A stretch of DNA of 34,077 bases, from IMG/VR virus record IMGVR_UViG_3300034022_000301, positions 1 through 34,077 of that record. One strand, written 5' to 3'. Positions 1 through 13,927 of this stretch are shown piece by piece. The notes under the pieces were generated by a model, which saw nothing but the letters and a program-made list of their open reading frames with translations, did no database searches and was not told the DNA's origin. This DNA comes from a virus. Position 1 is the stretch's first letter. Each line of letters opens with the position of its first letter. The position numbers and the translations under genes were made by a program.

Positions 1-573
1 CAAGGACTCTTTGAGATTTCTTTGCTGCACCAGGTTGTATTCCCATAATGTCTGAAAGTCTTCTGGAGACATAGTTAACAAGGGCATCAGCGGATCGATA
101 CCCAAGCCGGAGAAAAAATCTTTCGCACCTCCCTTGCTCAGTTGCTCGAATAACTCAAGCTTATAGTTGTGGATGTCGCTGTTCACGATGTTCGGGTCTT
201 CGTCATCGCGCACCAACCAAGTAGCCGCAATGTTAAGCAGGATGTCGCGATGTATCACCGTGTCCTGCCGCTCACGTATCACATGGATGTATGCGCCAAT
301 CAGTGCCGCGTTCTTTGGATTGCTTAGCCCTGCACCCAATGCCTTCTCCATTTCGCCAAGTATCAACTCCATCTCGCCGCCGCTGACTCCAGAGCTCAAC
401 CGCTCGAGCAAGGACATCGACATGCTGAAGCGTTCCAGTGGTAGATTGACTTCTTTCGGGAAGCGATAGTAGGTGTGCCCCTCGTGAGTGAATACCTCAA
501 CGAGGTTGTGCGTTGTCTTCTTACTGCCCGAGAAAGAACGCAGTAGTCCTTTTAATCCTTTGATGTACTTCAT
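1..573 (-). CDS. Tail assembly chaperone (gpG-like), 5' part; runs off the window start
   Basis: This is the N-terminal 191 codons of a gene that continues at the other end of the window (33835 down to 33782), giving 208 aa. The start is the ATG at 573 (MKYIKGLKGLL), which overlaps the preceding gene by 53 nt. It is a soluble, largely helical, acidic protein with no membrane segment. It lies one small ORF upstream of the tape measure gene, the usual position of the siphovirus chaperone that coats the tape measure protein during tail assembly. The identification rests on position, size and the overlapping -1 frame ORF at 33666-33881, not on a recognised sequence motif. Bases 1-242 are repeated near-identically at 33836-34077. 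Confidence 0.6.
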   Translation of the reverse strand, partial: MKYIKGLKGLLRSFSGSKKTTHNLVEVFTHEGHTYYRFPKEVNLPLERFSMSMSLLERLSSGVSGGEMELILGEMEKALGAGLSNPKNAALIGAYIHVIRERQDTVIHRDILLNIAATWLVRDDEDPNIVNSDIHNYKLELFEQLSKGGAKDFFSGLGIDPLMPLLTMSPEDFQTLWEYNLVQQRNLKESL

Positions 574-778
574 GTATTGATTCTTTTACAAATAGTTGGC
601 TGCCGTTCTGCATCATGATCACCGTGTCCAATTTATCATCAAACACATAGTTGATTTGATCGGTGTTGATAAGTAAATCTGTCCATCCAATCTCCTCCGC
701 TGTTAAGTCCTTGAGCTGCTCATCCTCTGTGTCCATAAACTGGATCAGCTTCGTTTGCACATGGATGAAGCCTGCCAT
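521..778 (-). CDS. Small FlbD-like protein, tail/connector region
   Basis: 85 aa. I chose the ATG at 778 because the preceding gene stops at 780-782 (TGA-C-ATG), although an open frame continues upstream to 850. Residues 37-75 (INTDQI, then TVIMMQNGSQLFVKESI) resemble the small FlbD family of flagellar regulators, which share an N-A/P-D-L-I...DTVI-x-L-x-NG-K-x-x-V-x-ES-V pattern. This is recognition by eye, and a shared short beta-rich fold does not imply a flagellar role. The gene sits in a tight run between large terminase and the tail chaperone, so a connector, neck or tail-completion job is possible but unproven. It overlaps the chaperone start by 53 nt. Confidence 0.6.
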   Translation of the reverse strand: MAGFIHVQTKLIQFMDTEDEQLKDLTAEEIGWTDLLINTDQINYVFDDKLDTVIMMQNGSQLFVKESIHEVHQRIKRTTAFFLGQ

Positions 779-779
779 G

Positions 780-980
780 TCACCAGTATCCGAATGGGCA
801 CTCTGCATCTTCGACTCTGGTCTTCGCAGGAAGGAAGCAGCCGCAAGCATTGCATGAGTTAAGCAGCTTGTCCTTGTGTTGGCACAGAGAGCAGATGGCA
901 GTACGTGGTTTGCTTAGCTCGTTGTTTCTACCCCTTAGCAGATACCACCAACCTTTGATGATTGCTCTAACCTTGCTCAT
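780..980 (-). CDS. Small six-cysteine zinc-ribbon protein
   Basis: 66 aa, with its ATG at 980 overlapping the preceding stop as ATGA. Cysteines occur at residues 30, 33, 43, 46, 48 and 61: a CxxC pair, a CNACGC cluster and a C-terminal CPFGYW. That arrangement looks like a compact metal-binding ribbon. Similar short proteins ending in CPxGxW recur in structural-gene regions of many phages, but I know of no firm function. The N-terminus is basic and aromatic (IIKGWWYLLRGR). It is co-transcribed with the terminase and tail genes. Confidence 0.65.
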   Translation of the reverse strand: MSKVRAIIKGWWYLLRGRNNELSKPRTAICSLCQHKDKLLNSCNACGCFLPAKTRVEDAECPFGYW

Positions 981-1312
981 GGAATAACCACAGGACTTAG
1001 CCCAACCGAAACAGCCGAGAATGATAAGCACTTGTAGATATCGCCATCGACTGTGATGTCTTGCTGCACGCTTGAGCCTGCGGAGTCGGTAACCCATATC
1101 GTATATCCTTGAAGTGGATCAATCTGAATGCCTTCAATGGTGATGTAGCCTTCGCCATCGCTAGTCGCTTCAAACTGCATTATCTTCTGCGTGGCATTGT
1201 GTTGCAGCCATACAGTGTAAAGTGTGTCCTCTTCGACAATGCCGAAGCTAAACTCTGTCAGGCAGGCGTTCACATAACTGCCTGCATCATAACATGGTGA
1301 ACATACGCTCAT
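977..1312 (-). CDS. Conserved beta-rich protein next to large terminase, function unknown
   Basis: 111 aa, ATG at 1312, ATGA overlap with the terminase stop at 1309. Three cysteines near the N-terminus (SVCSPCYDAGSYVNACL) are followed by alternating hydrophobic/polar stretches typical of a beta-sandwich (YTVWLQHN, GYITIEGIQI, GYTIWVTDSAG). There are no catalytic motifs. Short proteins with a Cys-rich start and an Ig-like body are common just after terminase genes in Bacteroidota phages. I would expect a structural or connector role, but the sequence does not prove it. Confidence 0.6.
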   Translation of the reverse strand: MSVCSPCYDAGSYVNACLTEFSFGIVEEDTLYTVWLQHNATQKIMQFEATSDGEGYITIEGIQIDPLQGYTIWVTDSAGSSVQQDITVDGDIYKCLSFSAVSVGLSPVVIP

Positions 1313-2627
1313 AGGTATCTCTTAAGTATTGCGTTTACAAAGTAACGAAAACAATCCAAGAAGTCGGCACGCTCGGATAAAATTCTTCTGTTGCTCTTGA
1401 TGATGCTGCCGTTGGCATCGCACTGGACCTGCTTAGCATCGAACACGAAGCCCTTGCACCTAACCGAGTTGGCTCTAATGTCAAGCTTTCGCAGTGCTGC
1501 ATTGCAATCGATGCGGCTGTTGTAGTGGGTTGGATTCGCCGGTATGATGATCTGCGAATCGCTGAGGTGCAGCCGCCGTTTGATCTGCGTGTAAGCACTG
1601 GAGTTGTCTCGCTGTTGCACTGTGCCACCTTTGCCCATCGCATCGCCAGTGATGCGCAGCAAGCCCATTGGGATGCCCATGCGCTCGATGTGATCACAGA
1701 ACGCATCAACGCTGCCCTTCTCAATCTTAATCTCGTCAACCACCACGCAGCCTCGAGGTAGCTGTTGGATGACCAGTGCGCAGAGTGGGTTGATGTTGAA
1801 ATCGACTGAGATGAAGATTGGTATATTGCGATTGAGCACAACGCTGTCATCGATGTGCCTATCATCTTGCCACTCGTACAGGAACGGGTTAGCAACGTCA
1901 TCGAGTATGTCCCAATCACCCTCCACGAATCTTTGGTACTGGACAGGCGGCAACTCCTTCAAGCTCTCAAGGTACTCAGCAGGGATGTGCGGATTGTCGG
2001 TGATCTTGCTTGGGATGTAGCTCCACCGCTCAGGTAGACTGTTGTCTCTATACCTATCGTAGATGATGGACTTCACCCAGTTGTTGGCAGGGTTGCAAGT
2101 AGCAAGGCAAACGATAGGCGGCTTGCCATGCGCCTTGTTCCAACTGCCGATGCGCTCCTGCACCTTGTAGAACGTAAGCTCTTGCAGCTCGTTAACCTCA
2201 TCGAGCCCTGCGCCGTTAATCTCCAATCCTCTGAAGCGGTTGAGGTCCTTGTCATCGTCAAAGCTTTCCGCCATGAAGATGAGCTCACTGCCGTTGTTGA
2301 ACGTCACAACATTGGTGTCTCTGTTCCAACTCTTGACATGTGCGTTCAACCCATCTCCGAGCAGTCCATTAAAGCTCGGGAAGGTTGTCCGCTTAAGGTC
2401 AGGTAAGCTCTTACGAATGATTGCCCAACGACTGCCGCCGTAGTGCAATGCGAGATGGCTGATCGTGAGCAGAAGCCAGTAGGTCTTGCCACCTCGATAA
2501 TCTTTCCCCCTTACATTTCTGCAAGGGGCGACCATCGTATAGCGCCCCCGAAAACAATGACTCGCTTGTCTCCGTTGGTCGCCATATCAAAGGCAATCGT
2601 CTGTGTCTTAGTTAGTGTAAATTGCAT
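1309..2627 (-). CDS. terL: Terminase large subunit, interrupted by a 41-nt gap in Walker A
   Basis: DNA-packaging motor ATPase and headful nuclease. The N-terminal part starts at ATG 2627 (MQFTLTKTQTIAFDMATNG, then IVFGGAIR) and reaches a TAA at 2513-2511. The rest of the protein is in another frame from GGT at 2493 (GGKTYWLLLTISHLALHY). Removing bases 2534-2494 joins GAIR to GGKT, a perfect Walker A (GxxxxGKT), and gives 425 aa, a normal length for the family. Other motifs are the Walker B-like GLEINGAGLDEVNE, coupling motif ATCNP, and nuclease acidic residues in ISVDFN, ITGDAMG and RADFLDCF. An ATG at 2535 could start a 408-aa version (MVAPCRN), but it lacks the adenine-binding N-terminus and the first Walker A glycine. 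The HNH gene's last 20 nt overlap the start. Confidence 0.92.
2494..2534 (-). other. Candidate translational-bypass gap in terL (41 nt, hairpin)
   Basis: Seen directly: the gap follows codon CGA (2537-2535) and ends with codon CGA (2496-2494). It is not a multiple of three and carries an in-frame TAA (2513-2511). Bases 2528-2507 form a 9-bp stem (one G-U) closed by a GAAA tetraloop at 2519-2516. An outer 8-bp stem (2537-2530 with 2502-2495, two G-U pairs) places both CGA codons at the helix base. A G-rich run (2510-2506) lies 9-13 nt before the landing codon. Known for comparison: T4 gene 60 skips 50 nt between matched GGA codons using a tetraloop hairpin. Whether ribosomes hop here is inference; a defective gene or assembly error is the alternative. 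Confidence 0.6.
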
Positions 2628-3135
2628 AGCTTCTATTTAATCTTTTAATCGATGAAATAGAACAATTAAACATTTCTGCAATTGTGATATTTTTTACTCC
2701 TTGTGATTTAAGCTTTGCAATTTGTTCAATGCCTTCCTTAGTTTGCTTGCATCTTGGACTTTCATGCAATCGCTTAGCTGTCATAAGTCCATTGTCAAAT
2801 GCGTGCTGAACATTTTCTGAATTGTTCACCCACTCTAAGTTGCTGACATGATTGTTAGTCTTAATGCCATCAATGTGATTTACTTGAGGCTTATCATTGA
2901 CATTGTCAATAAATGCCTTAGCAACTATCCTATGCACCTTAAGTGTGGTAAGTTTGCCATCAACCATAATTGCAACACGCTTATAGCCTTTCTTGTCAAT
3001 AGCAGGCTTAAGCATTCTACCTTTTAGATTGGATGCGTAGTTAAGTCTTTGAACAACTCTGTCAATGCTTCGTACGTTTCCATTATTGGACACTTCGTAT
3101 CCATTTGCAAACGCTATCCATGTTTCATTTTCCAT
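2608..3135 (-). CDS. Free-standing HNH homing endonuclease (NUMOD4-HNH-HTH)
   Basis: 175 aa from ATG 3135 (MENETWIAFANGYEVSNNGNVRS); an ATG at 3144 would add three residues. The order is an N-terminal NUMOD4-like segment (YEVSNNGNVRSID), the HNH core (LKVHRIVAKAFI, VNHIDG, NNHVSNLEWV) and a C-terminal helix-turn-helix (KNITIAEMFNCSISSIKRL), the classical layout of phage mobile HNH nucleases. It lies between small and large terminase, overlapping terS by 11 nt and terL by 20 nt. Its neighbour terL carries the 41-nt gap 70 bp into the gene. Such enzymes cut homologous loci lacking the element and spread by repair; a target in or near terL is likely from position only. Confidence 0.9.
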   Translation of the reverse strand: MENETWIAFANGYEVSNNGNVRSIDRVVQRLNYASNLKGRMLKPAIDKKGYKRVAIMVDGKLTTLKVHRIVAKAFIDNVNDKPQVNHIDGIKTNNHVSNLEWVNNSENVQHAFDNGLMTAKRLHESPRCKQTKEGIEQIAKLKSQGVKNITIAEMFNCSISSIKRLNRSYAIYTN

Positions 3136-3427
3136 CTGTTTCAATTGTTCTTATGATCACCAACGGCTCAGTACTTGTGATGTTGGTGTCGGTCGTTTGC
3201 TTCGGCTTGCCGTAGCCGCGATCAAGCAGCATCTCCGCAGCCTTGATGTCGCCCTTCAATGCCTTGGCTTCAATTGCCTTGAGGATGCGCTCCGCTGTTG
3301 TTAGGCCGTTCTTCTCATCACCCAAGATGTCAGCCATAAGCTTGCTCAGCTCGGGCAGCTTCTTAGGTCGGCCAACATTCTTGGTGTTGCCTGAATTCAA
3401 TTTGCCTCCGTTTCTACCTTCTCTCAT
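3125..3427 (-). CDS. terS: Putative terminase small subunit (DUF5681-like)
   Basis: 100 aa, ATG at 3427. The N-terminus is basic (NVGRPKKLPELSKLMADILGDEKNG), followed by helices (AERILKAIEAKALKGDIKAAEMLLDRGYGKPKQ). The GRPKKLP...GDxxAAExLLDRxYGKPKQ signature belongs to a family often found directly before large terminase in Bacteroidota phages and prophages and usually annotated as a small-terminase or DNA-binding protein. Position supports DNA recognition for packaging. The HNH gene starts inside its last codons, as expected for a later insertion between terS and terL. Confidence 0.65.
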   Translation of the reverse strand: MREGRNGGKLNSGNTKNVGRPKKLPELSKLMADILGDEKNGLTTAERILKAIEAKALKGDIKAAEMLLDRGYGKPKQTTDTNITSTEPLVIIRTIETDGK

Positions 3428-3447
3428 GTGACGAGATATTGACGAGT

Positions 3448-3579
3448 TTATCGCTTCTTAAATTTAGCCGCTTCTGCGTTAGCAATTGCCACCGCCTGCA
3501 TTGGTGCATAGCCTTCATCAATTAGCTTCTTGATGTTCATCTGGATGATTTGTGGCGAGTCGCCTTGGAATAGTGGCAT
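3448..3579 (-). CDS. 43-aa conserved phage protein (MPLFxG... KKLIDEGY type)
   Basis: A short gene starting MPLFQGDSPQIIQMNIKKL and ending AVAIANAEAAKFKKR. Many phages carry a similar 40-70 aa basic helical protein beginning MPLxxxxS and ending QAVAIAYxxxRK near terminase or head genes; its role is unknown. The start is the ATG at 3579, two nt after the stop of the preceding gene. A TATCTTTG box lies five nt upstream of the ATG, inside the end of the preceding gene. Twenty nt separate its stop from the terS start at 3427. Confidence 0.65.
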   Translation of the reverse strand: MPLFQGDSPQIIQMNIKKLIDEGYAPMQAVAIANAEAAKFKKR

Positions 3580-3581
3580 GA

Positions 3582-3881
3582 TTACAAAGATAGTGTTTTG
3601 CTGCGTTTGATATCGTCCTCAGTCAATTTCAATCTTACAACCTTGTTGTATATTATCACATCGGCAGTCTTGTAACCTGCATCGCTCTCACGCAATACTC
3701 CGATAAGATATTCATTGGGCACTTCCATCTGGATGCTTTCCGATGCTTCCATGATCTTCTGCATTGCCTTAAGCTTGAATGTCACCTCAACATCTTGCAC
3801 TGATCCTGTCGGTGTCAAGTAGCCAGTGAAGGTGTCATCTTGAATGCGCATGTATCCACTTCGCCATCTGTTAGCAGCCAT
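3582..3881 (-). CDS. Hypothetical protein (99 aa)
   Basis: I chose MAANRWRSGYMRIQDDTFTGY at 3881 as the start because it overlaps the preceding gene by 11 nt; an open frame extends to 3929. The protein alternates beta-like stretches (FTGYLTPTGSVQDVEVTFKL, YLIGVLRESDAG, DVIIYNKVVRLKL). I see no catalytic motif, membrane segment or signal peptide and do not recognise the family. It lies in the run of small genes between the VRR-NUC nuclease and small terminase. Confidence 0.6.
   Translation of the reverse strand: MAANRWRSGYMRIQDDTFTGYLTPTGSVQDVEVTFKLKAMQKIMEASESIQMEVPNEYLIGVLRESDAGYKTADVIIYNKVVRLKLTEDDIKRSKTLSL
3585..3592 (-). promoter_or_regulatory. TATCTTTG box (Bacteroidota -7 type) before the 43-aa gene
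   Basis: TATCTTTG matches the Bacteroidota -7 consensus TAnnTTTG and lies 5 nt from the ATG at 3579. A transcript from it would be leaderless or nearly so. I did not find a convincing -33 TTTG, so this is a weak promoter call supported mainly by recurrence of the same box before other starts. Confidence 0.35.
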
Positions 3882-4056
3882 AGTCTTCTGTTCGTTTTGA
3901 TTTGTACTGCTCAAGGTATGCGTAAACAAGTCGCTTGATATCTGCTTTCTTACTCTTCGGTATTCGCAGAGTCACGTTGCATGTCTCTTCGCCGTACTTA
4001 AATGGCGGACCTGCACCGGCTCTCTTGCCGCCTCTTCTTTCAATCTTCTGTTCCAT
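3871..4056 (-). CDS. Small DNA-binding-like protein (GGKRAGAGPP type)
   Basis: 61 aa from ATG 4056 (MEQKIERRGGKRAGAGPPFKYGE). The GGKRxGAGxPxKYGE motif followed by TLRIPKSKKADIKRLV is shared by many small phage and plasmid proteins with a basic arm and a ribbon-helix-helix-like core, so DNA binding is likely. A TATCTTTG box sits six nt before the ATG. It overlaps the upstream 86-aa gene by 17 nt. The target is unknown; a transcriptional switch is one possibility. Confidence 0.6.
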   Translation of the reverse strand: MEQKIERRGGKRAGAGPPFKYGEETCNVTLRIPKSKKADIKRLVYAYLEQYKSKRTEDYGC

Positions 4057-4300
4057 TGGCAGCAAAGATAGGAATTAACTTTTGATTATGCAATTTTAAT
4101 GTCTTAATCCATTTAGCGCATCGGCTTAGGTAGTAGGAGTAGACGATGCTTTCGGGATGGGCATTCATCAAGTGCATCCTAAAGCTCTCATGCGTGCGCT
4201 GAGTTGAATGATATGTCACGCAGCCATCGACAATCTTGCCTTCGATTGGATACCACTCGTTCATGGTCTTGATGATCTTCTGCTCAGTGGTCAGTTCCAT
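4040..4300 (-). CDS. Hypothetical protein (86 aa)
   Basis: MELTTEQKIIKTMNEWYPIEGKIVDG..., ATG at 4300, overlapping the VRR-NUC gene stop by 17 nt. It is mixed alpha/beta with a central histidine-containing stretch (YHSTQRTHESFRMHLMNAHPES). I do not recognise the family and see no clear motif. Position suggests a recombination or packaging accessory role, but nothing in the sequence demonstrates that. Confidence 0.55.
   Translation of the reverse strand: MELTTEQKIIKTMNEWYPIEGKIVDGCVTYHSTQRTHESFRMHLMNAHPESIVYSYYLSRCAKWIKTLKLHNQKLIPIFAANGTED
4063..4070 (-). promoter_or_regulatory. TATCTTTG box before the DNA-binding-like gene
   Basis: TATCTTTG, followed by six nt and the ATG at 4056, within the 3' end of the upstream gene. 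It matches TAnnTTTG; no strong -33 element was seen. It could drive a near-leaderless internal transcript. Confidence 0.35.
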
Positions 4301-4619
4301 AGTTGATAATCTCTAAAAATTCTGCTTCACTTCTTACAATGTGGTACTCGTGGCCGAGTGATCGGCAAAGCTTCTCGAATGTAACTTGTTGAGGTGACTG
4401 TCTGCCGGTGTCAGTCTTCCATTCAATCCAGCATGTCTTGCCTTCGGGCTTAAGGTAGCACATGTCAGCAACTCCTGCGATGACTCCCATGGCTTTATTC
4501 ATTGCACCCTTGATGCCGTTGATGGAGTTGTTGTTGATGGCGAAAATGCGGCCACGTAGGTCTGGGCGTGCGTTCCAAAGGTTTTGGAATGCTTTCGCTT
4601 GGGTTGCAACCTCACTCAT
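4284..4619 (-). CDS. VRR-NUC domain nuclease
   Basis: 111 aa, ATG at 4619, the first gene after the repeat-bearing non-coding segment. It has the compact VRR-NUC/Holliday-junction resolvase-like core: a helix with glutamine (TQAKAFQNLW), GVADM with the metal-binding Asp around residue 52, then IEWKTDTGRQSPQQ around residues 65-78, giving the D...ExK catalytic set, and a C-terminal helix. Phage VRR-NUC proteins act as structure-specific endonucleases in recombination or packaging. It heads the block leading into the terminase genes. Confidence 0.88.
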   Translation of the reverse strand: MSEVATQAKAFQNLWNARPDLRGRIFAINNNSINGIKGAMNKAMGVIAGVADMCYLKPEGKTCWIEWKTDTGRQSPQQVTFEKLCRSLGHEYHIVRSEAEFLEIINYGTDH

Positions 4620-4746
4620 AAGTGGACAGCTTGCATGCCTTGGACATGTCTAAAATAGGTACATGTCTCCTCTCAATCCTTAGAGCATCTAAGGTTGCAG
4701 ACGAAGTGGACAGCTTAGTGCAAAAAACAACCCACTTAGTACTAAC

Positions 4747-4787
4747 ATGTGTGTGTGTGTGTGTGTGTGTGTGCATGTGTGTGTGTA
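4747..4787. repeat. TG dinucleotide microsatellite
   Basis: An alternating purine-pyrimidine run of about 40 bp (TG repeats with one internal CA) in the non-coding segment. Such tracts are rare in small phage genomes, can slip in length and can adopt Z-DNA under negative supercoiling. Exact length may be affected by sequencing or assembly. Confidence 0.85.
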
Positions 4788-4863
4788 TATCTGTTATTTA
4801 ATAGTTTTTAAGATGTCTCCTGTCCATATCCTCTGCGCTTTTAGAGTACCAACGGTTTTGAGA

Positions 4864-4891
4864 GGACAGCTTCAAAAAAACAAAGCTGTCC
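4864..4891. repeat. Inverted repeat GGACAGCTT/AAGCTGTCC after the primase gene
   Basis: A perfect 9-bp inverted repeat with a 10-nt A-rich spacer, starting 13 nt past the primase-helicase stop. No T-run follows on the minus strand, so a canonical terminator is doubtful. The arms are the same 9-mer found elsewhere in this segment, which favours a protein-binding site. Confidence 0.6.
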
Positions 4892-4903
4892 AAGGCTGTC
4901 CAC

Positions 4904-7033
4904 TTACATAGGATTTCGAGTGACATAGTACATCATAACCTTCGATTTGTTAATTGTTCTGCGCTGTTTTTCAAATCCTAACGATGTGAGTATCGAGCCA
5001 ATACGTTGAGTGTTAAGGTAGTTAAACTTTGTATCACCCATCAAGTACTGTTGTATGTCGGTAAGTGTCATCCATTCGCCTAAGCCTGTTGATGATCCAG
5101 GTGTAAGCTTCTTGGATATCAAATCATCTTCAGGAGTTGAAAGCTTATACATCTCTGTTGCTGCGTTAAGCCTTTCGATATCTTCTTTAAGTATTGTGTA
5201 CTCTGCGCCTCTTTGGAACATGCAGAAGAGCTCACGCCAAAGAGCTTCTTTGTCGCACTGGTTATACAGCTCATGGTCAATGCCAAGGATGTGGATGGGC
5301 ATGATGCGTCTGTTGCCTGTTGGATCGCTAAGTATCTGCATCTCGTTAGATGTTCCGCAGAATACTGCAAGCCTTTTTAGATCCACTGAAACACGACCAT
5401 AAGGCTCGCGCACGTTTATAAATTCTTTCGATGTCAGCTCCTTCATTCGCTTCTCTTCGCGCTTGGACTTACCACCGTACTCATCATCATTGATTATCAA
5501 TCTGCCGCACATAAGAATCTCATCATCTTTGCCTGCATCCATTTTTGATTCAGCGTATAGGTATCGAATCTTTTTAGGAAGCAGGTAGCGAAACCAGTGA
5601 GTCTTTCCAGTGCCTTGCTTTTCTCCGCAGAATACAAGCACGAGCTCTGACTTATTACCATATGCAGATGCAACAACTGAAAGAAGCCATCTAAGAATAA
5701 AGAAGTCGGCATCTTGAGTGTCAGTTATTATGCTGCTAAGAAGTAGTTGAATGTTTGGCCATTGGTCATTGTTGTATTCATAGAGCTCTGATTCAAAAAA
5801 CTCATGAAGCGGATTATAGGATTGCACTCGATTCGAGAATATTATCGATGTGACCAGGTCTTTGCTTGACTCTTTGAATATTGCTTTGGAGTCAAGGAAT
5901 ATGGAGTTAATGTCACTATCATCAATCGCCTTGTAAGACAGTTCAATCTTACGAGTGATAATATTCCTTCGCAGATCGTAGGTGTTGACAAATGCTGCGA
6001 TGTCGGTACTTATGCTTTCCGATTTATACTTGATATCCTTGCTTACTATCTGCTCGACTATTTCTTTTGACTCTTCTGGAGTTATGCCAGACACCTCGAG
6101 AGACTTGACTATGCTATCAGCTGACAGCCCTGCGGCTCTTTGCGATGTGGCATGTCGCATGATGGCCTTGCTGTGCTCGGTGTATATGTCGATGCCGTTC
6201 TGCTTGGCGAGGTAGTATATTGATCCGATGCTTGACTTCTTACCTTTGGACTCGTTGTGGTTTTTAAGGCAAGCATCAAACTGGCTATCGCAGTCAATGG
6301 AGTTGTACTTGGATGATGTGGCAGATAGCGTATGGAAGTGCTCTCTTCCTTGTTCGCCAAACTCGGAAACAAGACCATAGCAGATGCGAATCCAATCGGA
6401 GTAATCCTCGCAAAGGTTGAGGCCTTTTTGATCCATCTGGGCAATCATGGAGTCGAAGTCTGTTTTTATTACTACTACCTTTTGCTGCTTGAACTCCTTC
6501 TTTTTGGGCAGGTACTTCTTGAATGTTGCTGCGTTTGGGTTTTGGATAAGTGCAGGATCGTAGGATATAAAGCGAGCTCTGGATACGTTCTTGCCGGACT
6601 GGTCCACGATAAGTTGGTACTCGTTGTAGAGGTATGCAGCGATGGCATTGAAAGCATCGAGGTGCCGAGTGCCGTCAATCTTTACTACTAAGCAGAGACC
6701 TTTGCCGCTGATAGATATGAAGGCAGCAAGTATATAGGGGTCAGCACCTATTCGATTCTTTGTGGCAACGGCATCATCGAGGTTGTCGATATCTATTGCG
6801 ATAAGGTTGGAGTGCTTTCGGATTGCATCATCCTTGCGAGCTGCAAATGAGCCGCTGACTGTGACCACTGGAGCGGTCTTCTTTTTAAGTTCTTTTATCT
6901 CCTTGTTAGGAGCGTTGCGCACTTCGAGTGCGATGTCTTGCCATCTGCCTGAGCGCACTCCTTCGAGGAAGTTATCAAATTCGATGTCGGTGTCTTGGGT
7001 GTCATGGATGTTCTTATAGTGAGAGATGAGCAT
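4904..7033 (-). CDS. VirE/BT4734-type primase-helicase
   Basis: 709 aa, ATG at 7033 overlapping the helicase gene by 20 nt. The N-terminal ~200 residues resemble the BT4734/BF3469 primase-like domain (VSGSFAARKD, LIAIDIDNLDD, ISISGKGLCLVVKI, SRARFISYDP). A PriCT-like helical middle follows (DYSDWIRICYGLVSEFGEQG). The C-terminal part is a VirE-type P-loop ATPase: Walker A GEKQGTGKTHW near residue 470, acidic LIINDDEYGG near 507, and FCGTSNE and NRRIMP motifs. The family combines priming and unwinding and is typical of Bacteroidota mobile elements and phages. It is the last gene of the early block and probably the main replication protein. Confidence 0.9.
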   Translation of the reverse strand: MLISHYKNIHDTQDTDIEFDNFLEGVRSGRWQDIALEVRNAPNKEIKELKKKTAPVVTVSGSFAARKDDAIRKHSNLIAIDIDNLDDAVATKNRIGADPYILAAFISISGKGLCLVVKIDGTRHLDAFNAIAAYLYNEYQLIVDQSGKNVSRARFISYDPALIQNPNAATFKKYLPKKKEFKQQKVVVIKTDFDSMIAQMDQKGLNLCEDYSDWIRICYGLVSEFGEQGREHFHTLSATSSKYNSIDCDSQFDACLKNHNESKGKKSSIGSIYYLAKQNGIDIYTEHSKAIMRHATSQRAAGLSADSIVKSLEVSGITPEESKEIVEQIVSKDIKYKSESISTDIAAFVNTYDLRRNIITRKIELSYKAIDDSDINSIFLDSKAIFKESSKDLVTSIIFSNRVQSYNPLHEFFESELYEYNNDQWPNIQLLLSSIITDTQDADFFILRWLLSVVASAYGNKSELVLVFCGEKQGTGKTHWFRYLLPKKIRYLYAESKMDAGKDDEILMCGRLIINDDEYGGKSKREEKRMKELTSKEFINVREPYGRVSVDLKRLAVFCGTSNEMQILSDPTGNRRIMPIHILGIDHELYNQCDKEALWRELFCMFQRGAEYTILKEDIERLNAATEMYKLSTPEDDLISKKLTPGSSTGLGEWMTLTDIQQYLMGDTKFNYLNTQRIGSILTSLGFEKQRRTINKSKVMMYYVTRNPM

Positions 7034-9785: not shown

Positions 9786-9997
9786 TGCTCCAGTGCTCTT
9801 TTGTCTAGCGGAATAAATCCACTGCCGTTACCATGTACAACCTTGATGAAGTCAACCTCAACTTTTGCTGAGTTGACAATCACCTGGGCGATGTCTGCGA
9901 TTGCTTTTGCTTTGTCGAGCTCCATGTCGTTTTCTTTGAGCATCTCGATTATCTCAAATAAGTGATCTCTTAGGTCTTCGATTTTATTGCGTGCCAT
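9782..9997 (-). CDS. Conserved 71-aa protein of Bacteroidota phages (MARNKIEDLRDH type)
   Basis: ATG at 9997, ATGA overlap with the nuclease gene. The pattern NKIEDLRDHLFEIIEML...ELDKAKAIADIAQVIVNSAKVEVDFIKVV is shared with small helical proteins in many Bacteroidota prophages beside recombination and replication genes. No enzymatic motif; a binding or regulatory role is likely but unproved. Confidence 0.65.
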   Translation of the reverse strand: MARNKIEDLRDHLFEIIEMLKENDMELDKAKAIADIAQVIVNSAKVEVDFIKVVHGNGSGFIPLDKRALEQ

Positions 9998-10575
9998 AAT
10001 TTATTTAGGGTTTTAACTGCTTGTTGAATTGGTTGAGGATATTTAGTGATGCGATTGCGCTGCATGTTCTCCACTTTGGTGATTGCTTCGAGGTTATCGA
10101 TGGAGAAGTTGCTGATGTTCTTGTCGATGAATGTCACTATCATGTGCGGCTCAAGAGTGCCATGCTCTTGTTCGTAGATGTAGCGATGCTTGAGTACCCA
10201 CTTGCGAGGATCGGCAATCTTTATGTAGGTGTAGCCATCTTCATCGATACGCTCTGATGCAACAGACTTGTGGTTATGCGGCACATGACCCTTCTTAAAT
10301 TGCGATTCTTTGCCTCCGATGTCAAGCCCTTTCATGCCTTTGTTCCAAGGTGTGTTGCCCTTTGGGAACTGCGTTCCAACATTGCCCCTCTTAAGCCTGC
10401 CGCTTGCTTCTGTTGCTAGGTACTCTGGAGTTTTATGCAATTGCAGTGCGAAGGCTTTGGCATAACACTGGGCGATTGATTTCCCAGTGATAAATGCCAC
10501 CTCTTTTGTCGACCGATGCGGATAGTATTCAATCAGCAACTCGGTCTCTTCGAGTGTCCAGTTACAGCGACTCAT
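9970..10575 (-). CDS. HNH-endonuclease-like protein with Myb-like N-terminus
   Basis: 201 aa from MSRCNWTLEETELLIEYYP at 10575, which overlaps the preceding gene by 14 nt; the frame is open to 10677. The N-terminal ~50 residues look like a Myb/SANT-type helix-turn-helix. A middle segment holds FPKGNTPWNKGMKG and FKKGHVPHNH, typical of these phage HNH proteins. The C-terminal part resembles an HNH module: LKHRYIYEQEHG, then HMIVTFIDKNISNFSIDNLEAIT. The usual central H/N pair is partly replaced (FIDKN instead of HxDGN), so catalysis is uncertain. It could be a mobile nuclease or a DNA-binding regulator. Confidence 0.8.
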   Translation of the reverse strand: MSRCNWTLEETELLIEYYPHRSTKEVAFITGKSIAQCYAKAFALQLHKTPEYLATEASGRLKRGNVGTQFPKGNTPWNKGMKGLDIGGKESQFKKGHVPHNHKSVASERIDEDGYTYIKIADPRKWVLKHRYIYEQEHGTLEPHMIVTFIDKNISNFSIDNLEAITKVENMQRNRITKYPQPIQQAVKTLNKLWHAIKSKT

Positions 10576-10789
10576 AATATGCGAGCCCTCCGCTGTCTCC
10601 TCCTGTGTCGGTTGGTATTGGTTGCCTTTCGTACATCGCTTGTTGGCCGTCATGGTAGCCATGTGAGTAGGCATCAATCATTGCATCTTTTACCTTATCC
10701 TTGAGCGGCTGCTCTTTTGGCGGCATGATTTCGTCTAGGTAGCGTGTGAGCTCATTGAACTCATCGCCCATGTTTTGCAGTGTGATCAT
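10562..10789 (-). CDS. Hypothetical protein (75 aa)
   Basis: MITLQNMGDEFNELTRYLDEIMPPKEQ..., ATG at 10789, ATGA-type overlap with the gene before it. Mostly helical, ending in a Gly-rich tail (TDTGGDSGGLAYY). There is a central DAMIDAYSHGYHDGQQ helix like those of small phage proteins near recombination genes. No function can be assigned. Confidence 0.6.
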   Translation of the reverse strand: MITLQNMGDEFNELTRYLDEIMPPKEQPLKDKVKDAMIDAYSHGYHDGQQAMYERQPIPTDTGGDSGGLAYYESL

Positions 10790-13201: not shown

Positions 13202-13364
13202 CTTGAATAAGTTTAATAAGTTCTTTGGATGATTGCCAGAACTCACGCTTATCCTTGAGCTCTGCTTGCAAAATTTGCAGTGCCACGCATACCGGCATGC
13301 CTCTCTCGATGACATACAAAGCGGCCACTTGCACAAGTCTCTTGTCCGCTTCTTTGTCTGTCAT
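13182..13364 (-). CDS. Hypothetical protein (60 aa)
   Basis: MTDKEADKRLVQVAALYVIERGMPVCVALQ..., ATG at 13364, ATGA overlap with the PAS/DHp gene. Helical with an amphipathic start and two cysteines. No known family. It is translationally linked between the kinase-like and spanin-like genes. Confidence 0.6.
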   Translation of the reverse strand: MTDKEADKRLVQVAALYVIERGMPVCVALQILQAELKDKREFWQSSKELIKLIQDGICTI

Positions 13365-13927
13365 AACTCCCGAGCTGCTTTCTTAACAAGTGCCTTGATG
13401 GCATCATCAAGCTTGTGGACTGATGTGTTAATCATGGCAAGGAGGTCACGCTTCTCATTATCGTTTGCGCTTGGATGATCTCTAAGCATCTGGACCAACG
13501 AGGAGATGCTTGTAAGCGGTTGCCTTAACTCATGGCTAAGCATGAATCGAAACTCCTCAAGCAGCATCTTCTGCCTCTCATGCTCATGCGAGCTGATGGA
13601 GGTGACATCGATTATCTGAATGCCAACAAAGTGAAGAGTATCATCAATCGCAAAGCAGTTCCAAACATTATATCTATCGCTTGCGTTCTTCTGCTTTGTA
13701 CGAGCATAGACTCTTGAAGGCTCAGGCGAATACTTGCGAGCTCTTGCAATTGCATCAATAAAATCGTCTTTGTCTCCTGCAATGTTTATGATTTCGGTAA
13801 TCTTCTTTGGCTTGATGTGACTGACATAATTCTTAAACAGCTGATTGTTGGATACAATCACACCGTCTTGATCAGTCACCACATAGAAGAGGTCGATGGA
13901 ATTTTCTAGGATGAAGAGCGAAGACAT
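13361..13927 (-). CDS. PAS plus histidine-kinase DHp (HisKA) protein without ATPase domain
   Basis: 188 aa, ATG at 13927. Residues 1-112 look like a PAS sensor domain (DLFYVVTDQDGVIVSNNQLF... ending FVGIQIIDVTSI). Residues 115-185 form a dimerisation/phosphoacceptor helical pair with the H-box FMLSHELRQPLTSISSLVQM, His132 being the phospho-accepting residue. The N, G1, F and G2 boxes of the catalytic ATPase domain are absent and the protein stops after the second helix. It could accept or relay phosphate from host kinases, or block them by heterodimerising. It lies inside the lysis cassette. Confidence 0.85.
   Translation of the reverse strand: MSSLFILENSIDLFYVVTDQDGVIVSNNQLFKNYVSHIKPKKITEIINIAGDKDDFIDAIARARKYSPEPSRVYARTKQKNASDRYNVWNCFAIDDTLHFVGIQIIDVTSISSHEHERQKMLLEEFRFMLSHELRQPLTSISSLVQMLRDHPSANDNEKRDLLAMINTSVHKLDDAIKALVKKAAREL

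Follow-up and report, generated by a model that had tools for sequence, protein, structure and literature searches.

The terminase large subunit gene (terL) of the viral genome analyzed here (IMG/VR record IMGVR_UViG_3300034022_000301; the window denotes this whole stretch of 34,077 nucleotides) is interrupted within its Walker A codons by a short insert, and a gene for an HNH homing endonuclease lies directly upstream. We propose, with a probability of roughly 85%, that the endonuclease gene and the insert form a mobile cassette in phages of probable Bacteroidota hosts, the insert being bypassed by the ribosome. The gap inside the Walker A codons is a confirmed observation: the coordinates, the TAA codon within the 41-nt gap and the different frames of the two terL parts, all given in an earlier note on this DNA, proved exact on re-reading of the reverse strand, and joining the parts at the two CGA codons yields, as claimed there, an uninterrupted TerL of 425 aa with an intact Walker A motif (GGAIRGGKT). 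The features of the locus are:

3125..3427, minus strand: packaging-type gene with DUF5681 (Pfam, 1.8e-7), which adjoins terL where relatives lack the HNH gene
2608..3135, minus strand: NUMOD4-HNH_3 homing endonuclease gene (Pfam NUMOD4, 7.6e-11; HNH_3, 1.2e-8)
2535..2627, minus strand: N-terminal part of terL, 31 codons, MQFTLTK...VFGGAIR (MQFTLTKTQTIAFDMATNGDKRVIVFGGAIR)
2535..2537, minus strand: take-off codon CGA (Arg)
2494..2534, minus strand: 41-nt gap, putatively bypassed
2520..2528, minus strand: 5' arm of the hairpin, CCCCTTGCA
2516..2519, minus strand: GAAA tetraloop
2507..2515, minus strand: 3' arm of the hairpin, TGTAAGGGG
2511..2513, minus strand: TAA stop in the take-off frame
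2494..2496, minus strand: landing codon CGA, the last triplet of the gap
1309..2493, minus strand: C-terminal part of terL, from GGKTYW to the stop, in a frame different from that of the N-terminal part (PHROG terminase large subunit, 6e-25; uninterrupted in almost all relatives)

A comparison of the TerL profile with the PDB gave no match.

Relatives were collected from IMG/VR by searches with the C-terminal part of terL and by pattern scans, duplicates were removed, and the window was counted. Among the 181 distinct loci, 136 encode a contiguous GG[A/S/G]IR-GGK, and 45 carry an insert at exactly the site found in the window. The inserts are 41 nt (25 carriers), 39 nt (19) or 40 nt (1) long, so that all three frame relations between the two terL parts occur. 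All these sequences are metagenome assemblies, which would be compatible with an error of assembly or sequencing, a possibility raised in the earlier note; the 44 carriers other than the window, however, stem from about 40 metagenomes that were assembled separately and differ from one another in a covarying manner, and the recurrence of the insert at the same position in independent data refutes both such an error and chance, leaving it a negligible probability.

Structure and stop codons were compared across 25 distinct elements. Each of the 25 contains a stop codon in the take-off frame, which is adjacent to the take-off codon or one codon later in the 39-nt and some of the 41-nt elements, and is the ninth codon in most of the 41-nt elements. 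Most 41-nt inserts have, in addition, a landing-frame TAA that immediately precedes the landing codon, and no start codon intervenes. The varying insert length (39, 40 or 41 nt) rules out the constant frame relation of a programmed frameshift, and the three frame relations together with the ubiquitous stop imply that neither frameshifting, readthrough nor reinitiation can explain the entire set. What is found instead are two open reading frames of one protein, separated by a gap that is missing from relatives, as in translational bypass. Synthesis of TerL as two polypeptides, a 31-aa N-terminal part and a reinitiated C-terminal part, would be consistent with ATG 2535 of the window, which is in the frame of the C-terminal part, and with the splitting of genes by endonuclease insertions in other phages (PMC2988022). 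We nevertheless consider this very unlikely: where TAA abuts the landing codon and no start precedes GGKT, reinitiation cannot rebuild the Walker A motif, the C-terminal part alone would lack the strand preceding the P-loop, and the short N-terminal part evolves under purifying selection.

Both parts of terL are in fact subject to purifying selection, with a median dN/dS of 0.115 for the N-terminal part among carriers, and the C-terminal part is open in nearly all carriers, the exceptions being L103 and L118. On well-supported branches of the terL tree, at least 23 gains or losses of the insert are required. This high turnover, the flanking triplets that could assist deletion and the other terL defects in L103 and L118 would fit genes that are dead or transient while they bear the insert and lose it by precise DNA deletion between the CGA/CGH repeats. 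Such an explanation is equally improbable, given the low dN/dS in both terL parts and the covariation and codon rules described below for the 25 elements and a second family, which require selection while the insert is present. The defects themselves are a single in-frame stop at codon 238 of the C-terminal part in L103/L016 and an internal deletion with a frame change in L118. Pattern scans of IMG/VR for copies at sites other than terL yielded, besides the terL site itself, only unrelated chance matches. Incomplete matches to TerL in Flavobacterium isolates were considered as potential split genes, but they are annotated as full-length and gave no sign of a split.

The earlier note predicted that the gap folds into a 9-bp stem with a tetraloop, enclosed by an 8-bp outer stem that joins the CGA codons. 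In the window, the 9-bp stem with its GAAA loop and the outer pairing form the minimum free energy structure (z = -4.6; 1 of 200 shuffled sequences was as stable). Over the 25 distinct elements, the inner stem is conserved: 98.7% of the cells are paired, four of the nine pairs have changed on both sides, covariation reaches 0.501 compared to 0.209 in shuffles and drops to near zero once the partner is slid, and the loop is invariably GNAA. The outer stem did not hold up, being paired in 69% of cells over the 25 elements, no better than in shuffles, with most pairs broken; it is a property of the subgroup that includes the window. A wider stem, GCNAT-GGTGG, was rejected as well, having no compensatory changes.

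The codons flanking the gap follow a strict pattern. The take-off codon is CGA in all 45 carriers, and the landing codon is CGA (n=20), CGT (n=14) or CGC (n=11), never AGA, AGG or CGG, the Arg codons that occupy the site in 15 of the 136 insert-free relatives. Immediately ahead of the gap, ATA CGA is invariant, whereas the remaining upstream codons show synonymous variation, and in one clade the carriers have CGA where the nearest insert-free relatives have AGA or AGG. CGA, CGU and CGC are the three codons decoded by the tRNA-Arg that carries inosine 34 (ICG), CGA-inosine being the weakest of these pairings, and AGG is outside the reading range of this tRNA. Take-off and landing codons are thus matched for a single tRNA, from CGA to CGH in 45 of 45 carriers and, in the second family, from CGU to CGU/CGA, from CGC to CGU/CGA and from AUU to AUC, as expected if the peptidyl-tRNA releases one codon and re-pairs at the other; neither splicing nor DNA excision predicts such a rule. 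The constraint is due in part to the common ancestry of the cassette. Of the matched CGA codons emphasized in the earlier note, the take-off CGA is universal in this family, whereas identity of the two codons is dispensable and readability by one tRNA suffices. The possibility that the landing codon is the recipient's own Arg codon was rejected, since it matches the nearest insert-free relatives in only 9 of 43 cases (permutation p 0.998), so that the landing codon belongs to the cassette.

Further upstream, Asp-Met-Ala at terL codons -18 to -16 before the take-off is nearly fixed in carriers; the Met is present in 20 of the 21 distinct carrier N-terminal parts and is absent from the common residues of insert-free relatives. 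These residues might be hitchhiking or might reflect a requirement of the nascent peptide.

A second TerL family, about 41% identical to that of the window, was entered via locus L318, which was retrieved with a pattern that fixed neither the take-off nor the landing codon. L318 contains a 39-nt element one codon earlier than the site in the window, in the order ATT, gap with TAG, hairpin and GCAA loop, ATC, and then AGG GGC GGT AAG; here, Arg is encoded by AGG, and the matching codons are those of Ile, AUU and AUC. The insert is absent from 50 of the 61 distinct loci among the relatives of L318. Six loci of this family have a 39-nt element with a 10-bp stem, a GNAA loop, take-off CGT and landing CGT or CGA, whereas four have very short gaps that follow CGC, begin with UGA and lack a hairpin: UGA-CGU (6 nt, in two lineages), UGACAAA-CGA (10 nt) and UGACAAAC-CGU (11 nt). 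All 10 Arg landing codons in the second family are CGH, compared to 30 of 47 insert-free Arg codons (p = 0.025). L333, a carrier of this family, has a NUMOD4-HNH gene directly upstream. The element at the terminase P-loop in the second family could be either homologous to that of the first or convergent.

Gaps of 6, 10 or 11 nt near the TerL Walker A, in L364, L407, L334, L346 and L347, are candidates for natural stop-hops. In a third terminase type (L297:3680-3800; also L298 and L304-L306), a NUMOD4-HNH gene lies immediately upstream, and the frame is broken, with UGA, at the Walker A (ATA GGA GGT TGA GTG CAT...), but there is no hairpin insert; this may be a further recoding site linked to an endonuclease, or the gene may be broken. 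L307, a 57% relative, is contiguous at the Walker A. In L309, five group I introns (Rfam) are located within about 4.2 kb (2714-6873) around its L297-related terminase gene.

The main rival to bypass is an RNA-level mini-intron, either self-splicing or cut by proteins and ligated. Introns, too, are precisely removed from a fixed site, have structured RNA and may be partnered by a homing endonuclease. However, 39-41 nt is far below the size of any self-splicing intron known to us, the Rfam search of the window gave no match and thus no catalytic core of a group I-type intron, and a mini-intron predicts neither the one-tRNA codon match, nor the switch to AUU/AUC in the element where AGG encodes Arg, nor the gaps of 6-11 nt without a hairpin. 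We regard a mini-intron as unlikely, albeit less so than the alternatives considered above. Bypass resembling that of T4 gene 60, the reading offered in the earlier note, is supported by the insert lengths, the stops, the covariation, the codon match and the second family; no other single mechanism accounts for all the variants.

The HNH gene, which the earlier note overlooked, directly precedes terL with a 20-nt overlap; its frame is open from TTG 3144, with ATG 3135 as the likely start. Its relatives were found solely in loci with the terL insert. An HNH gene is present upstream in 21 of the 43 carriers with enough upstream sequence and in none of the 133 insert-free loci (Fisher 1.3e-15), and tree-independent pairs on the terL tree number about 13 for the association between the HNH gene and the insert and 0 against (median p 2.4e-4). 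The endonuclease gene is thus linked to the insert and never occurs without it, as in a cassette. In pairs matched for downstream divergence, carriers are more alike upstream of the insert (0.73 vs 0.47, 0.84 vs 0.74), the excess likeness being confined to the stretch between the endonuclease gene and the gap, with none after the insert. This upstream-only likeness is a co-conversion footprint, as left by a unit spreading by homing.

Elsewhere in the window, there is a second HNH_3 endonuclease gene (9970-10677, minus strand; Pfam 6.9e-14). Among the relatives, several insert-free clades (e.g., L026, L036 and L049) contain about 110 extra nt between terS and terL.

Shine-Dalgarno motifs are almost absent at the 36 gene starts of the window, and its primase is closest to those of phages of Flavobacteriia; together, these features suggest a Bacteroidota host, although no prophage or named host was close among the matches. 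Given that the phage and its probable hosts hardly use Shine-Dalgarno motifs, GGGGG before the landing codon may not help landing, and a Shine-Dalgarno role for it is doubtful. Two other products of the window gave Pfam matches, FlbD-like (521-850, minus strand; 5e-8) and HisKA-like (13361-13927, minus strand; 1.8e-10).

The site, the insert, its structure, the codon rule, the association with the HNH gene and the high turnover can be read from the sequences, and the following scenario is proposed to connect them. The cassette would comprise two insertions linked to each other: a free-standing HNH gene, located between terS and terL, and, about 90 nt beyond it, the insert of 39-41 nt within the Walker A codons of terL. 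The insert would be transcribed but skipped by the ribosome, which would pause at CGA with the hairpin at or near the A site. Aided by the GNRA hairpin and the stop in the gap, a peptidyl-tRNA, presumably tRNA-Arg(ICG), would leave the take-off CGA, slide over about 40 nt and re-pair at the landing CGH directly before GGKT, where translation would resume to produce a single full-length TerL. The endonuclease would cut insert-free terL and thereby spread the cassette, and the insert presumably shields its carriers, as in T4, because it interrupts the conserved DNA at the spot. No KKYK-like motif of the T4 nascent-peptide signal was seen in the N-terminal part of terL, which is itself conserved, and the stop is often non-adjacent to the take-off codon, so the trigger may differ from that of T4. 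More broadly, we lean towards the view that phages recurrently tolerate insertions at homing targets by means of bypass. Hairpin elements and minimal stop-hops (CGC-UGA-CGU) at the terminase P-loop would then be alleles that are protected or confer resistance, that originated in or were passed to two or more terminase families, and that obey the one-tRNA rule.

T4 gene 60 with MobA was reportedly described as a mobile DNA cassette by Bonocora et al. in 2011. Bypassing in T4 depends on a nascent-peptide signal. In this phage, mobA, a free-standing HNH gene, precedes gene 60, in which the gap is 50 nt long (PMC3014915, PMC2988022, PMC5009743), and the bypass mechanism, namely, release, sliding and resumption at the landing codon, has been worked out (PMC11194080). 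The arrangement in the window is similar, with an HNH gene upstream of the gene with the gap, and this adjacency is the strongest parallel to T4. The two systems differ in the target (terminase P-loop vs topoisomerase), the codons (CGA/CGH with tRNA-Arg(ICG) vs GGA/GGA), the GNRA loop found here, the stop (often non-adjacent to the take-off codon vs adjacent), the take-off position (codon 31 vs codon 46), the lack of a known nascent-peptide signal here, and the distribution (dozens of phages and two terminase families vs T4 alone).

The byp elements of Magnusiomyces capitatus are likewise short non-coding mRNA blocks that are skipped and thought to be mobile, with take-off and landing codons that are not always identical (PMC5009743), but they are mitochondrial, occupy 81 sites in many genes, are context-independent and have no endonuclease partner, in contrast to the one site per genome here. 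Bypass has also been proposed in the terminase gene of Streptomyces phage Hau3 (PMC5009743), so that the earlier note was wrong to state that none had been reported in a terminase, and its claim of novelty was too strong. The Hau3 gap, however, is much shorter, tied to codon UUA, possibly regulatory and not described as a mobile insert. Prevotella loescheii belongs to Bacteroidota. A 29-nt hop has been reported in its plaA gene (PMC5009743), but this is an adhesin gene, no mobile cassette was described, and the hop was never confirmed in E. coli. The CGC-UGA-CGU alleles of L364 and L407 resemble the synthetic stop-hops, with matched codons around a stop, but are natural and reside in an essential gene. 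Literature searches on phage bypass, largely confined to journals available without subscription, yielded no report of such elements.

Bypass as such and a cassette of endonuclease and bypass have precedents in T4, and bypass in a terminase has a candidate in Hau3; the new aspects are the scale, the location at the terminase P-loop in two families, a hairpin of the GNRA type, a codon rule based on one tRNA that includes a natural swap from Arg to Ile, and the natural stop-hop alleles. T4 gene 60 has been regarded as the sole case among phages (PMC3014915), which means that the rules of bypass derive from a single example. With more than 50 natural variants, which span two terminase families and three gap lengths and include covarying hairpins and natural codon exchanges (Arg to Ile), the requirements of bypass become readable from evolution. 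The variants also lend support to the view that inserts of this kind form the protective half of selfish DNA cassettes. Gene callers will call such essential genes broken, and the bypass reading would turn a trick known mainly from T4 into a widespread mobile element.
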